Assembly: GCA_913009285.1 (NCBI GenBank)
Contig: CAJVYE010000008.1
Location: forward strand, 1-12,927
Direction: 5' to 3'
From: an uncultured Nitrospirota bacterium
GTDB taxonomy: Bacteria > Nitrospinota > Nitrospinia > SZUA-224
DNA length: 12,927 nucleotides
The notes under the pieces are model-generated. The model ran no database searches and was not told the origin of the DNA. It saw only the letters and a program-made list of their open reading frames with translations. Within the stretch, counting starts at the first letter, position 1. Every line of letters begins with the position of its first letter. The position numbers and the translations under genes were made by a program. Of the stretch, positions 6,811-12,383 are shown piece after piece.

Positions 6811-7160
6811 TTACTCATCTCCAAGATCTTATCTTCCTCTATGGAGCCATATGCCTTATATATCCTTATGATAAGTGCAAGGGCAACCGCTGTAGTACTT
6901 ACAGAGACCACAATAGCAGTGAGGATCAAGACATGAGGGAGGGGGTTGTCATATAGTATTGCCTCTTCCCATACTATTGGGGCCGTACCTCCCTTAACCT
7001 TTGCTATAGATATATAAAAGAGAAACACCGATGTCTGAAATATATTCATCCCTATAACCTTCTTTATCAGGTTCTGCTTGGCTATCATGGCATAAAATCC
7101 TATCATCATAAGTGTTATGTATATCCAGTAGTTATATTTGCCAAGAAAAATTTCGATCAT
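6807..7160 (-). CDS. mrpC: Mrp Na+/H+ antiporter subunit C (NuoK-like)
   Basis: This 117-residue protein with three membrane helices is homologous to NuoK of complex I and to MbhG of membrane-bound hydrogenases. Seen in sequence: helix 1 at about 10-27 (YWIYITLMMIGFYAMIA), then NLIKKVIGMNIFQTSVFLFYI (helix 2), a loop with GGTAPIV and DNPLPHVLILTAIVVSVSTTA leading into helix 3. The pairing of NPLPHVLILTAIVVS with a preceding GG-x-API loop is the classic MrpC signature. Length matches the family. The ATG overlaps the mrpB stop by four bases (ATGA) and the stop overlaps the mrpD GTG, so B, C and D are probably translated in series and made in equal amounts. Confidence 0.95.
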   Translation of the reverse strand: MIEIFLGKYNYWIYITLMMIGFYAMIAKQNLIKKVIGMNIFQTSVFLFYISIAKVKGGTAPIVWEEAILYDNPLPHVLILTAIVVSVSTTAVALALIIRIYKAYGSIEEDKILEMSK

Positions 7161-7576
7161 CTTTCCCGTCTCGCTGTCTCAAAGAATATAGTAATCATTA
7201 CTGAGGCTACCGTAATCCCTACCCCAATTTCAATACCAAGGATCCCCATATCACTTGCAAGATGGGCAGAGCCAAGTGGGAGGATGTTATATTCGAGGTA
7301 TTTTCCACCAAAAAGCACACAGATTAGACCAATCCCTGCATATATCAAGACACCTACGCTATTTAAGGTATCGCTTAATTTTTCTGAAATTATCTTCCTT
7401 CCTTGATCAATACCAAAGACAATTGCATAAAGGATTATACTTGCACCAAGGATTACACCTCCCTGAAATCCCCCTCCTGGTCCACTCTCTCCATGCATAA
7501 TTACATAAAACCCATAAAGCTGAATAAAAGGGATCAAGATCCTTGTAACGGTTCTTAATATGATGTTATCCTGCAA
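7157..7576 (-). CDS. mrpB: Mrp Na+/H+ antiporter subunit B (MnhB domain)
   Basis: This 139-residue protein has four predicted membrane helices and the MnhB-domain signature: IQLYGFYVIMHGESGPGGGF (about 18-37) followed by QGGVILGASI. The glycine-rich HGxxxPGGGFQGG motif is diagnostic for MrpB/MbhF. Towards the end LGIEIGVGITVASVMITIFF forms the last helix. The start is TTG at 7576, supported by AAGGAG (7584-7589) seven to eight bases upstream; no ATG lies nearby. It is the first gene after a long hairpin of tandem repeats, so its translation or mRNA stability may be set by that structure. The stop overlaps the mrpC start (ATGA). Confidence 0.95.
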   Translation of the reverse strand: MQDNIILRTVTRILIPFIQLYGFYVIMHGESGPGGGFQGGVILGASIILYAIVFGIDQGRKIISEKLSDTLNSVGVLIYAGIGLICVLFGGKYLEYNILPLGSAHLASDMGILGIEIGVGITVASVMITIFFETARRER

Positions 7577-7589: not shown

Positions 7590-7637
7590 CATATCCAAAA
7601 TAGTCAAATTATCACTACCAGTGGTGGCTTGTTACAA

Positions 7638-7740
7638 GTGCCTAAAGTGCCTAAAGTGAGCTAAAGTGAGCTAAAATTAAAAAAAATATTCCATCAACTT
7701 TAGGCACTTTAGCTCACTTTAGCTCACTTTAGGCACTTTA
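7638..7740. repeat. Inverted tandem-repeat hairpin, 33-bp perfect stem, between mbhE and mrpB
   Basis: The left arm has four consecutive units: GTGCCTAAA (7638-7646, 7647-7655) and GTGAGCTAAA (7656-7665, 7666-7675). The right arm has the inverse units TTTAGGCAC (7699-7707), TTTAGCTCAC (7708-7717, 7718-7727) and TTTAGGCAC (7728-7736), then TTTA. Bases 7643-7675 and 7708-7740 pair perfectly over 33 bp, leaving a 32-base A-rich loop. The stop codon TAA of the mbhE-like gene (7740-7738) lies inside the stem end. With 7577-7637, where I see only the mrpB ribosome binding site, this fills the gap before mrpB. I see no flanking direct repeat. It could stabilise or attenuate the transcript, or be a mobile-element relic. 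Confidence 0.95.
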
Positions 7741-8016
7741 CTTCTCATCTCTCTTTCTTCTTAAAAGCAATATTACACTTATACCTGCTGTAAATATAAC
7801 AGTGGTCTCTCCCAGGGTGTCATACCCTCTATAGCTTGCCAGAACAGAGGTAACCATATTGATTACCCCTGTCTCTTCATGGGTCTTCTCTATGTATCTT
7901 GGGGCTACATGATGGTTTGCTGGCGCCTGTGGATCCCCAAAATCTGGCATATCAATAGTTCCATAAGCCAGCATAGCACCAGTTACAAGAACAACAAACA
8001 GGGATATAGTCTTCAA
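7738..8016 (-). CDS. mbhE: MbhE-like / MrpA C-terminal domain subunit
   Basis: This 92-residue protein matches the extreme C-terminal domain of MrpA, which in membrane-bound hydrogenase operons is a separate gene, MbhE. The signature NHHVAPRYIEKTHEETG, then INMVTSVLASYRGYDTLGE, is the family's NHV-x(3)-Y-x(5)-ETG-x-x-N-VT-x(3)-YRG-x-DTLGE pattern. There is one N-terminal helix (about 3-19), a periplasmic-type loop, and one C-terminal helix ending in LLLRRKRDEK. I place the start at TTG 8016, which overlaps the mbhD stop (TTGA) and has AGGAGG eight bases upstream; a longer frame to 8130 would translate mbhD in the wrong frame. The stop codon sits inside a long hairpin. In Mrp complexes this domain helps anchor the antiporter modules to each other. 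Confidence 0.9.
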   Translation of the reverse strand: MKTISLFVVLVTGAMLAYGTIDMPDFGDPQAPANHHVAPRYIEKTHEETGVINMVTSVLASYRGYDTLGETTVIFTAGISVILLLRRKRDEK

Positions 8017-8255
8017 TCCTCTTCCCTCCTCTTTGTCCTGCTCAGGGCCGCTATTACCAAAACAGTAGTAATTCCTGCGCCAACCGATGCCTCTGTAAAG
8101 GCTACATCCACAGCATTCAAGTTTGTCCATACCAGGGCCATTATCAGACTATAGGCTGTGAGGATCATTGTTGCACTCAACAGATCTTTCATGTGGACCG
8201 CTGCTATTGCACATATTACAAGAAAAAGGAGAAGTATTAAATCTAAATCTATCAT
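8013..8255 (-). CDS. mbhD: MbhD-like (DUF4040) / MrpA C-terminal subunit
   Basis: This 80-residue protein with three helices corresponds to the DUF4040 (MbhD) domain that in canonical Mrp systems is fused inside MrpA. Visible are two N-terminal helices and the family signature NAVDVAFTEASVGAGITTVL (about 46-65), matching the family pattern DVA-x-TEA-x-VGAG. The start is taken as the ATG at 8255, which overlaps the mrpG stop (ATGA); an upstream ATG at 8276 would only extend into mrpG. The stop overlaps the following mbhE-like TTG. A charged tail, SRTKRREED, ends the protein. Being a free-standing gene here shows that MrpA is split in this system. Confidence 0.92.
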   Translation of the reverse strand: MIDLDLILLLFLVICAIAAVHMKDLLSATMILTAYSLIMALVWTNLNAVDVAFTEASVGAGITTVLVIAALSRTKRREED

Positions 8256-8563
8256 TTTGACCCCTTCTTTTCCCATGGCTTTACCCCTGCTAAGTAGGCA
8301 GCCTTGGCAATGGCATGGGTCGCTGTTGGATTGACTATAAATATGAATATTATTATAAGGAGGAGTTTAATGCTTATAAAGGAAAACCCCTCGTAAATAA
8401 TAAGACCTGTTAAAATCAATGTCTGGCCAAGGGTATCATTCTTACCTGCGGGATGCATCCTGGAGTAAAAATCAGGGAATCTCACCACCCCGATCGCAGC
8501 GACTACACTAAAGAAACAACCCATGGTTAAGAAGATACCTGTTATGATTGTAGTTATATTCAT
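8252..8563 (-). CDS. mrpG: Mrp Na+/H+ antiporter subunit G
   Basis: This 103-residue membrane protein with three helices matches MrpG/MnhG/PhaG. The signature is the segment AIGVVRFPDFYSRMHPAGKN (about 23-42) followed by DTLGQTLILTG, matching the family's GVLRFPDFYxRxHAxxKxxTLG pattern. The second and third helices follow (44-58 and 64-80), and the tail holds the family's NPTATHAIAKAAY. Length agrees with the family (about 100-120). It starts with ATG; no strong ribosome binding site lies just before it, and the upstream sequence has been changed by a 191-base insertion (element plus target duplication). Its stop overlaps the mbhD-like start. Confidence 0.95.
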   Translation of the reverse strand: MNITTIITGIFLTMGCFFSVVAAIGVVRFPDFYSRMHPAGKNDTLGQTLILTGLIIYEGFSFISIKLLLIIIFIFIVNPTATHAIAKAAYLAGVKPWEKKGSK

Positions 8564-8575
8564 AATAGATTATAG

Positions 8576-8583
8576 ATTTAATC
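8576..8583. repeat. Left copy of 8-bp target duplication ATTTAATC
   Basis: ATTTAATC directly abuts the left terminal inverted repeat of the element at 8584-8766. The same eight bases directly abut its right end at 8767-8774. A perfect 8-bp direct repeat flanking inverted ends is the mark of transposition. Confidence 0.85.
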
Positions 8584-8766
8584 GTAAGCGTTCACAGAAC
8601 ACTGAAATTTGAAATTGGAAATTGGAAATTAGGTAATAAGCCATAATTTTAATCCTTAAAAAGCATAATACGTTACCACGGATATTCCGTATCTTTCCAT
8701 GGTGAATTATTACGATAACACAAATTTCCAATTTCTAATTTCCAATTTCTAACCGTGAACGGTTAC
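8584..8766. mobile_element. 183-bp MITE-like element with GTAA-type ends and internal 7-mer hairpin arms
   Basis: The ends are GTAAGCGTTCAC (8584-8595) and GTGAACGGTTAC (8755-8766), inverted repeats matching at 11 of 12 positions, flanked by the direct repeat ATTTAATC on both sides. Inside the left end are four tandem heptamers GAAATT(T/G/G/A) at 8604-8631. Inside the right end are their four inverse copies, (A/C/T/C)AATTTC, at 8722-8749. GTAATAA (8633-8639) and TTATTAC (8707-8713) extend the fold, and ACGGA-TAT-TCCGT forms a small hairpin near the middle. There is no coding capacity. Ends beginning GTAA with an 8-bp duplication are known for the IS66 family, so I infer mobilisation in trans by an IS66-type transposase. 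It sits between the mrpF stop and the mrpG start. Confidence 0.85.
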
Positions 8767-8774
8767 ATTTAATC
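8767..8774. repeat. Right copy of 8-bp target duplication ATTTAATC, containing the mrpF stop
   Basis: ATTTAATC follows the right inverted end of the element directly and equals the copy at 8576-8583. The mrpF stop codon (TAA on the - strand, 8771-8769) lies within it, so the duplication preserved the gene end. Removing one copy and the element would leave a 14-base gap between mrpF and mrpG. Confidence 0.85.
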
Positions 8775-9023
8775 GAGTCTGCCTCTCTCTATATACTTTA
8801 ATATTGCAAAGGTTGCAATAAAATTCATAAGGGCATAAACAAGGGCAATATCAAGAAAATGAGGACGTTTATATATAAAGCCTATTAAGGCTAAAATCAC
8901 TACTGTCTTGGTTCCAATAACATTTACAGCAAGCGCCCTATCATACATCCTTGGACCTTTTATTGCCCTATAGAGGACAAGGAAGGTTGCCAGAACTATT
9001 GCTATTGCAGAGGCATTAAACAT
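8769..9023 (-). CDS. mrpF: Mrp Na+/H+ antiporter subunit F
   Basis: This 84-residue, three-helix membrane protein matches MrpF/MnhF/MbhB. Diagnostic segments are YRAIKGPRMYDRALAVNVIG (about 18-37), corresponding to the family's RxxxGPxxxDRxxAxNxxG pattern, and DIALVYALMNFIATFAILKY (about 58-77), corresponding to D-x-A-x-x-YA-x-x-x-F. Length is normal for the family (about 85-95). The start is ATG, with only a weak upstream AGG. The last codons and the stop coincide with the insertion site of a small mobile element, but the protein is complete. MrpF is a small structural subunit of the antiporter and is encoded between mrpE and mrpG, as is usual. Confidence 0.95.
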   Translation of the reverse strand: MFNASAIAIVLATFLVLYRAIKGPRMYDRALAVNVIGTKTVVILALIGFIYKRPHFLDIALVYALMNFIATFAILKYIERGRLD

Positions 9024-12248: not shown

Positions 12249-12260
12249 ACTACCTCGTTA

Positions 12261-12378
12261 TTTTCGATTTTCGATTTTCGATTTTCGAATGAAAGGAAAA
12301 AATATATTTTCGAGGGAAAAAACCTTCTCTTGGCTCTTTTCTTTAATAAATCAAAAATCAACATTAGAAAATCGAAAA
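12261..12378. repeat. Inverted tandem-heptamer hairpin between atpA and atpG
   Basis: The left arm is four exact tandem copies of TTTTCGA (12261-12288). The right arm carries inverse copies, TCGAAAA (12372-12378) and the variant TAGAAAA (12365-12371), with a further degenerate copy TCAAAAA at 12351-12357. The arms can form an imperfect A+T-rich hairpin around an A/T-rich centre. The feature fills most of the 135-base gap between the atpA stop (12384) and the atpG start (12248). No terminal GTAA repeat or flanking direct repeat is visible, unlike the element at 8584. A role in atpA-atpG mRNA processing is possible but not shown. Confidence 0.8.
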
Positions 12379-12383
12379 TTGAC

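Follow-up and report, generated by a model that had tools for sequence, protein, structure and literature searches.

The window analysed here is a stretch of 12,927 nucleotides from an uncultured Nitrospirota bacterium (contig CAJVYE010000008.1), whose assembly (G000) comprises 1.5 Mb in 304 contigs and is 59% complete. On its minus strand lies an Mrp-type operon in which mrpF and mrpG are separated by a 183-bp sequence with inverted ends, and this locus raises the question of what the sequence is, what moved it there and from what it was derived. A first-pass annotation had described a non-autonomous mobile element with 12-bp ends and a perfect 8-bp duplication of the target ATTTAATC, and the coordinates given for it were exact (Table 1). 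The ends GTAAGCGTTCAC and GTGAACGGTTAC are complementary at 11 of 12 positions, and in being short, gene-less and bounded by terminal inverted repeats the sequence has the build of a MITE. As had also been described, four tandem heptamers face four inverse heptamers in its interior. Between these two arrays lies an inner unit whose right end is GTAATAATTCACC read inward and whose left end, GTAATAAGCC, is a worn version of the GTAATAGTTCAGCC found in other copies; no target duplication of its own was seen for this unit.

Table 1. Features of the mobile element and its surroundings (positions in the window unless a contig is named)
Feature	Position	Strand	Remarks
Mobile element, 183 bp	8584..8766	+	Plus is the orientation of the IVP gene in sister copies
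Target duplication ATTTAATC, left copy, 8 bp	8576..8583		Same site and same duplication in sister species G001
Target duplication ATTTAATC, right copy	8767..8774		Contains the mrpF stop codon (8769-8771)
Left end GTAAGCGTTCAC (8584-8595) plus AGAACACT	8584..8603	+	Also present in L246 and L251 (IVP-coding)
Left array, four heptamers GAAATTN	8604..8631	+	From the sequence and TRF
Inner unit	8633..8713		At the place of the IVP gene in sister copies
GATAACACA	8714..8722	+	In L246 (IVP-coding), overlaps the stop codon of the IVP gene (read by eye)
Right array, four inverse heptamers AATTTCN	8723..8750	+	From the sequence and TRF
Right end GTGAACGGTTAC	8755..8766	-	Equals GTAACCGTTCAC read inward
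mrpG	8252..8563	-	PF03334; downstream of the insertion in the operon
mrpF	8769..9023	-	PF04066; upstream of the insertion in the operon
Palindrome GTAACCGTTCACGGTTAC, 18 bp	G000:C36:1982-1999, G001:C60:5321-5338, G003:C190:16978-16995, G007:C244:445-462		

The distance between mrpF and mrpG is 205 nt, and removal of the element and one duplicate would leave the 14-base gap that had been calculated before (205 - 183 - 8 = 14 nt). As the mrpF stop codon is inside the right duplicate, mrpF was left unchanged by the insertion, again in agreement with the first reading. Of 77 phylum genomes, 29 have MrpG matches, at 32 places in all, 30 of which were retrieved as loci. At the 28 loci besides those of the window's genome and its sister species (G001), the gap, measured between the mrpF stop and whichever mrpG start is closest to the match, ranged from -11 to 46 nt and was at most 10 nt in 27. 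The gap sequence is thus not shared by distant relatives; such sharing had been named beforehand as one observation that would speak against the element. A relative with an empty site and a single ATTTAATC had also been proposed as a check; no base-exact empty site was found when other insertion sites were compared, the third member of the genus (G002) having no MrpG match and the sister species being occupied, and the argument for insertion therefore rests on gap lengths.

In the sister species, the insertion is present at the identical place with the identical duplication. It is therefore older than the split of the two species and not recent. In a hand-placed alignment, the two copies of the element differ by 5 substitutions in 176 sites and by two indels (7 and 4 nt), whereas 28 of 132 four-fold sites are substituted in the neighbouring mrpE, mrpF and mrpG (Fisher p 2.8e-7). 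This slow divergence could reflect either constraint or homogenisation among copies, and a second copy common to both species also appeared slow by eye. Both strands of the element are predicted to fold strongly, with z -6.91 for the plus strand and z -5.29 for the mRNA strand, each better than 200 of 200 shuffles. The large mRNA hairpin before mrpG that the first-pass annotation had proposed is supported as a predicted fold, with putative effects on the mRNA. We also considered a structured RNA family, which was dropped as the single match in Rfam was far below the cut-off.

Using the element as query, we obtained 121 match rows in its own genome, a number in which fragments and both strands of palindromes are counted separately. 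The exact end motif GTAASCGTTCAC occurs 83 times in this genome and its reversed pattern 0 times; in the same genus, we found it 66 times in the sister species and once in the third species. Among the 77 genomes of the phylum, GTAASCGTTCACRG is present in six (G000, 81; G001, 65; G002, 1; G003, 42; G007, 33; G004, 2), and the reversed control gave four single matches, each in a genome outside these six. End pairs were analysed in 74 stretches (211 kb) around GTAASCGTTCAC-type ends in the three species of the genus. With at most one mismatch per end, 14 of the 48 nearest end pairs in these stretches carried a perfect 8-bp duplication, compared with 0 of 1920 offset controls. The remaining 34 pairs had no perfect duplication, which is expected for old copies yet limits the evidence. 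With up to two mismatches per end and distances of up to 7 kb, 20 pairs had 8-bp flanks that were alike in at least seven of eight positions, 17 of them in all eight; two of these 17 were 18-bp palindromes. Dozens of copies sit at unrelated sites, with different 8-bp duplications. Many scattered copies with target duplications are what a MITE family would be expected to show, and the earlier reading as a non-autonomous mobile element was thereby supported. The number of heptamers per run in other copies of the window type was counted as about 2 to 6 and is often unequal on the two sides, so that four against four is no rule of the family.

Several other repeats were noticed during this survey. 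One copy in the window's genome (G000:C83:831-1155) matches a locus of the sister species (G001:C164) in its flanks and outer ends, and the interiors are very different, as though the internal part had been swapped. Four of the 77 genomes each contain one copy of the 18-bp palindrome GTAACCGTTCACGGTTAC (L242-L245), with perfect 8-bp flanks at three of the four places and none at the place in G007. It gave the first impression of an independent mobile unit, which we rejected; if the ACGGTT repeats at the two ends of one element were joined by deletion, exactly this 18-mer would remain, and the palindrome is probably a remnant of such an event. Isolated runs of some four heptamers (AAATTTG, for example) were seen within and between genes in other families of the phylum (L032-L047 in G003, G007, G009, G011, G013, G015 and G017), and these have no GTAA ends.

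Members of the IS66 family have ends that start with GTAA and produce an 8-bp duplication. The window-type ends likewise begin with GTAA and are associated with an 8-bp duplication, and IS66-type mobilisation had been proposed on this basis. Matches to PF03050 were present in 7 of the 77 phylum genomes; there was no match in G000, which is 59% complete, and one in the sister species, in an open frame of 102 aa. Eight IS66 loci of the phylum were inspected by eye, and three of them had recognisable GTAAC- ends, namely GTAACCGTCCG at L149 and GTAACTATTCA / GTAACTATTCAG at L150 and L109. The right end of the window element, GTAACCGTTCA, is similar to the ends of both types. Smaller units with GTAACTATTCAG ends were also read by eye inside sister copies; one such unit in G001:C58 has the flanks AAAGGAAA/AAAGGAAA (8/8) and another in G000:C4 has ACAGAATG/ACAGAAAG (7/8).

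On the other hand, we found no DDE transposase (PF03050) within GTAASCGTTCAC ends in the genome itself, the genus or the phylum, including the eight IS66 loci. ORFs of at least 60 aa just inside the ends were listed, and those of the IVP family described below were put to a family search; there was no autonomous partner among end pairs of up to 7 kb in the fetched stretches, and no IS66 coding sequence was seen in the interiors of end pairs. Two end patterns were searched in viral_contigs, one with 0 matches and the other with six single ends that had no partner and were taken as chance. As G000 is only 59% complete, the absence of an autonomous partner is not proved. Considering the similar ends of IS66 elements in the phylum and the GTAACTATTCAG-ended units with 8-bp flanks, an IS66-type transposase acting in trans is the likely mobiliser. 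The earlier proposal of IS66-type mobilisation is plausible from the ends, the duplication and the three similar IS66 loci, but no transposase gene was found with the GTAASCGTTCAC ends.

The arms of the window element were found to be those of a mobile element encoding an intervening-sequence-type protein of the family 23S_rRNA_IVP (PF05635; IVP). A scan of genome_contigs with the 26-nt left end GTAAGCGTTCACAGAACACTGAAATT gave 11 stretches, of which 10 were in the MAG Nitrospirae bacterium SZUA-224 and one (L251) in the MAG Candidatus Neomarinimicrobiota; no transposase was found beside the left end in these stretches. L251 is a 445-bp element with GTTTTATA on either side, a perfect 8-bp duplication, and its arms are tandem heptamers as in the window copy. 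An intact ORF of 117 aa is its only gene (PF05635, 4.4e-22; TIGR02436, 2.9e-22), with 2gsc as a solved relative (E 0.00038, and 7.7e-35 by profile), and its right end GTGAATGGTTAT is worn. The genes next to this element were read by eye as coding for a ThyX-like protein and for an M1-type peptidase that carries a sorting-type tail. The contig may therefore well belong to Neomarinimicrobiota itself, though a binning error is conceivable. In SZUA-224, L246 holds a frameshifted IVP copy preceded by the L251-type left end and left arm; this copy is 88% identical to that of L251 in the aligned protein part, and the right end of L246 is missing. The window copy has kept both arms and GATAACACA, with a GTAATA-type-ended inner unit at the place of the gene. 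It retains no IVP coding sequence except a few bases at the stop codon, and its link to the IVP gene therefore goes via the shared arms. Of these three, L251 has a PF05635 gene between complementary ends, L246 has one with a frameshift and without the right end, and the window copy, which shares their left end and arms, has lost it.

Fragments of the IVP gene (33-145 nt) were identified at 17 places in the 74 stretches, 13 in G000 and four in G001. The same 145-nt piece occurs at six places and the same 3' piece of 75 nt at four, and these shared breakpoints imply that deletion derivatives have multiplied. At G000:C18, the beginning of the IVP protein continues directly into the right arm. A different IVP gene is located in a 447-bp unit of G007 (L292) with the ends GTAACTACTCAGGT and ACCTGAGTAGTTAC and the flanks CAAATTTT/CATATTTT, which agree in seven of eight positions.

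To see these arms in a wider setting, we examined IVP genes in general. PF05635 matches were detected in 20 of the 77 phylum genomes and in none of 14 named control genomes. The fetched loci contained 84 distinct IVP matches; 26 partial or edge matches were left out, and 58 were full length with enough flank (57 from the phylum plus L251). An inverted repeat across the gene was counted at a score of at least 12 and arrays at a period of 7 or 8. Compared with 34 other ORFs from the same loci, some of whose flanks may extend into IVP arrays, and with 290 shuffled flanks, IVP genes had a flanking inverted repeat in 44 of 58 cases (controls 1/34 and 1/290), an upstream array in 42 (7/34 and 5/290), a downstream array in 42 (7/34 and 7/290), arrays on both sides in 32 (2/34 and 0/290) and an array on at least one side in 52 (12/34 and 12/290). 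The repeat word of these arrays varies between loci. Outside the phylum, 18 distinct full-length IVP loci were available, 17 from viral contigs and one from a cyanobacterial plasmid. Inverted repeats were present at 12 of them, upstream arrays at 14, downstream arrays at 11 and both arrays at 10, whereas 22 control ORFs outside the phylum showed no inverted repeat and two one-sided arrays; the plasmid gene was one of the six loci that lacked the inverted repeat.

The IVP gene and its arms travel together among close relatives. Arms were shared by 16 of 25 IVP pairs with at least 60% identity and by 9 of 2901 pairs below that value, and the outer flanks were unrelated in 21 of the 25 close pairs, 12 of which share arms. 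There was no overall correlation between the arm word and IVP phylogeny (Spearman 0.014 for 2926 pairs, with a maximum of 0.073 in 500 permutations). Both neighbours lay within 300 nt for 49 of 59 full-length IVP genes, and 44 of these 49 were co-directional with both. With regard to terminal duplications at the 58 loci, nothing convincing was observed outside the arrays. Perfect repeats of 5, 6, 7, 8 and 9 nt by the inverted ends were found at 2, 5, 1, 1 and 0 of the 58 loci, and the duplication matches printed for lengths 6 and 8 fall within arrays (swapped controls averaged 0 to 0.15); L251 is also missed by this test because its right end is worn. In one pair of loci from two families of the phylum, L270 (G000:C145) and L333 (G015:C265), the IVP proteins are 89% identical and the arms match (score 39), whereas the outer flanks are unrelated; a recent move between lineages is likely in this case.

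We consider it probable that the window element is a MITE derived by gene loss from an IVP-encoding mobile element and moved in trans, most likely by an IS66-type transposase. The ancestor would have been a small mobile element with GTAASCGTTCAC ends and inverted heptamer arrays, whose sole gene encoded the 23S_rRNA_IVP or four-helix-bundle protein. A trans-acting transposase, most likely of the IS66 type, would recognise the ends and insert the unit with an 8-bp duplication, and derivatives that kept the ends would also have been moved and so have multiplied. In the window copy, a second GTAA-ended unit now occupies the place of the gene. Insertion at the mrpF stop codon before the split of the sister species would have left mrpF intact and added a long potential hairpin to the mrp mRNA ahead of mrpG. 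In RNA the arms are predicted to form a long stem, and by analogy with rRNA inserts this stem may be cut by RNase III. Because its arms are those of an IVP-encoding element, the window element is best read as the derivative of a gene-bearing element, and no longer as an IS66-moved MITE of unspecified source. The first-pass annotation missed this origin of the arms, as well as the sharing of the insertion with the sister species.

Other explanations have to be weighed against this derivation. An ordinary IS66-derived MITE, formed by internal deletion of an IS66 element, with some copies having picked up heptamers and an IVP gene as passengers, would explain the GTAA ends, the 8-bp duplications and the similar IS66 ends in the phylum, and many end pairs of the genus do have short and varied interiors. 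This explanation appears unlikely since pieces of the IVP gene were found at 17 places but no IS66 coding sequence was seen in any interior, and since inverted 7/8-mer arrays flank IVP genes also where no GTAA ends are seen and in unrelated contigs. It is also conceivable that the IVP protein itself confers mobility and that the GTAA ends belong to it, with IS66 uninvolved. The intact L251, with gene, ends, a perfect duplication and no other gene, would suit such a role, as would the joint travel of gene and arms among close relatives. Proteins of the bAvd/Avd type (PF22296) belong to diversity-generating retroelements, where Avd works together with a reverse transcriptase, and one of two IVP proteins matched the bAvd profile weakly (28.5 bits, curated cut-off 40). 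However, the protein is a helical one of 117 aa for which we know of no catalytic site, most copies lack the gene and IVP loci in general gave no duplication signal, so we regard this possibility as quite improbable.

The notion that the sequence is no mobile element but a conserved RNA hairpin that regulates the mrp operon is hardly credible, given the dozens of copies at unrelated sites with their different duplications and the 28 other mrpF-mrpG gaps, which are too short to hold it. The strong predicted fold of both strands agrees with a regulatory hairpin, and the low substitution count relative to four-fold sites (5/176 versus 28/132) suggests that some constraint after insertion is possible.

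Beyond the derivation of the window element from an IVP-encoding ancestor, a broader idea may be put forward tentatively, and we would call it possible though doubtful: that repeat-armed IVP genes are widespread, undescribed small mobile elements, that the intervening sequences (IVS) of 23S rRNA are members caught in rRNA genes, and that the IVP protein is their mobility factor. The unit would then consist of the gene and its arms, the 7- or 8-nt word of which would drift while the two sides stay complementary. Such a unit would settle between operon genes and shed miniature hairpins, and its protein would promote mobility, possibly by acting on the RNA hairpin. In the present genus, one unit would have come between GTAA ends and so become visible as a cut-and-paste element.

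Among the closest known counterparts is the 23S rRNA IVS. According to a 2016 study, the 23S rRNA IVS of Coxiella burnetii is 428 nt long, with an S23p ORF, a 28-bp stem and tandem heptamers ahead of the start codon (two or three, depending on the strain), and is excised by RNase III in vitro; the study calls the origin and function of 23S rRNA inserts unclear (PMC4990558). A transposition origin of the IVS is given there only as a hypothesis, credited to Burgin et al. 1990; Ralph and McClelland 1993 is cited for the IVS as a mobile element (both cited in PMC4990558). In CPR bacteria, another study reports IVP ORFs in insertions of both 16S and 23S rRNA (PMC11270868). The family identified here resembles the Coxiella IVS in gene family, in length (445 bp in L251), in its stem-forming complementary ends and in the tandem heptamers just before the start codon. 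It differs from rRNA IVSs in lying outside rRNA and in having target duplications, GTAA ends and many gene-less derivatives, and the window copy, situated between mrpF and mrpG and outside 23S rRNA, was not classed as an rRNA IVS.

The window element shares its GTAA ends, 8-bp duplication and gene-less state with MITEs and insertion sequences of the IS66 family, but no IS66 gene with these ends was found, and its interior and arms are related to IVP elements, not to IS66 genes. Tandem heptamers between genes are also known from cyanobacteria as short tandemly repeated repetitive (STRR) sequences and resemble the arrays described here in this respect; to our knowledge, STRR sequences have neither an inverted partner array nor an IVP gene. 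In the open-licence PMC literature, we found no account of arrays as a general feature around IVP genes or of target duplications of IVP elements, an absence that is not proof. The probable origin of the window element from an IVP-coding mobile element is new here. An element that lies outside rRNA but has an IVP-family gene and the heptamer layout ties the rRNA inserts to mobile DNA: it has ends and target duplications, occurs intact in another phylum and has given rise to a family of derivatives without the gene. The old transposition hypothesis thus becomes testable. The inverted 7/8-mer arrays around PF05635 genes offer a signature for finding such elements.

Two further repeat hairpins were observed in the window. 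At 12260-12382, about four ATTTTCG heptamers face imperfect inverse ones (fold z -2.5; 3 of 200 shuffles were as good) in a 135-nt gap between two ORFs that, by our own reading, resemble AtpG and AtpA. No clear duplication was seen at this array, and the matching gap between aligned blocks of the sister species is about 20 nt. The other hairpin, at 7636-7740 (z -10.4), has perfectly complementary 33-bp arms built of 9/10-mer CTAAAGTG units and is flanked by the MnhB gene (7157-7576) on one side and the following ORF (7738-8130) on the other. At this site the sister species lacks the hairpin and has another repeat instead. With 97% identity over 34 nt, the arms match those next to a PF05635 IVP gene at the sister's locus L302.
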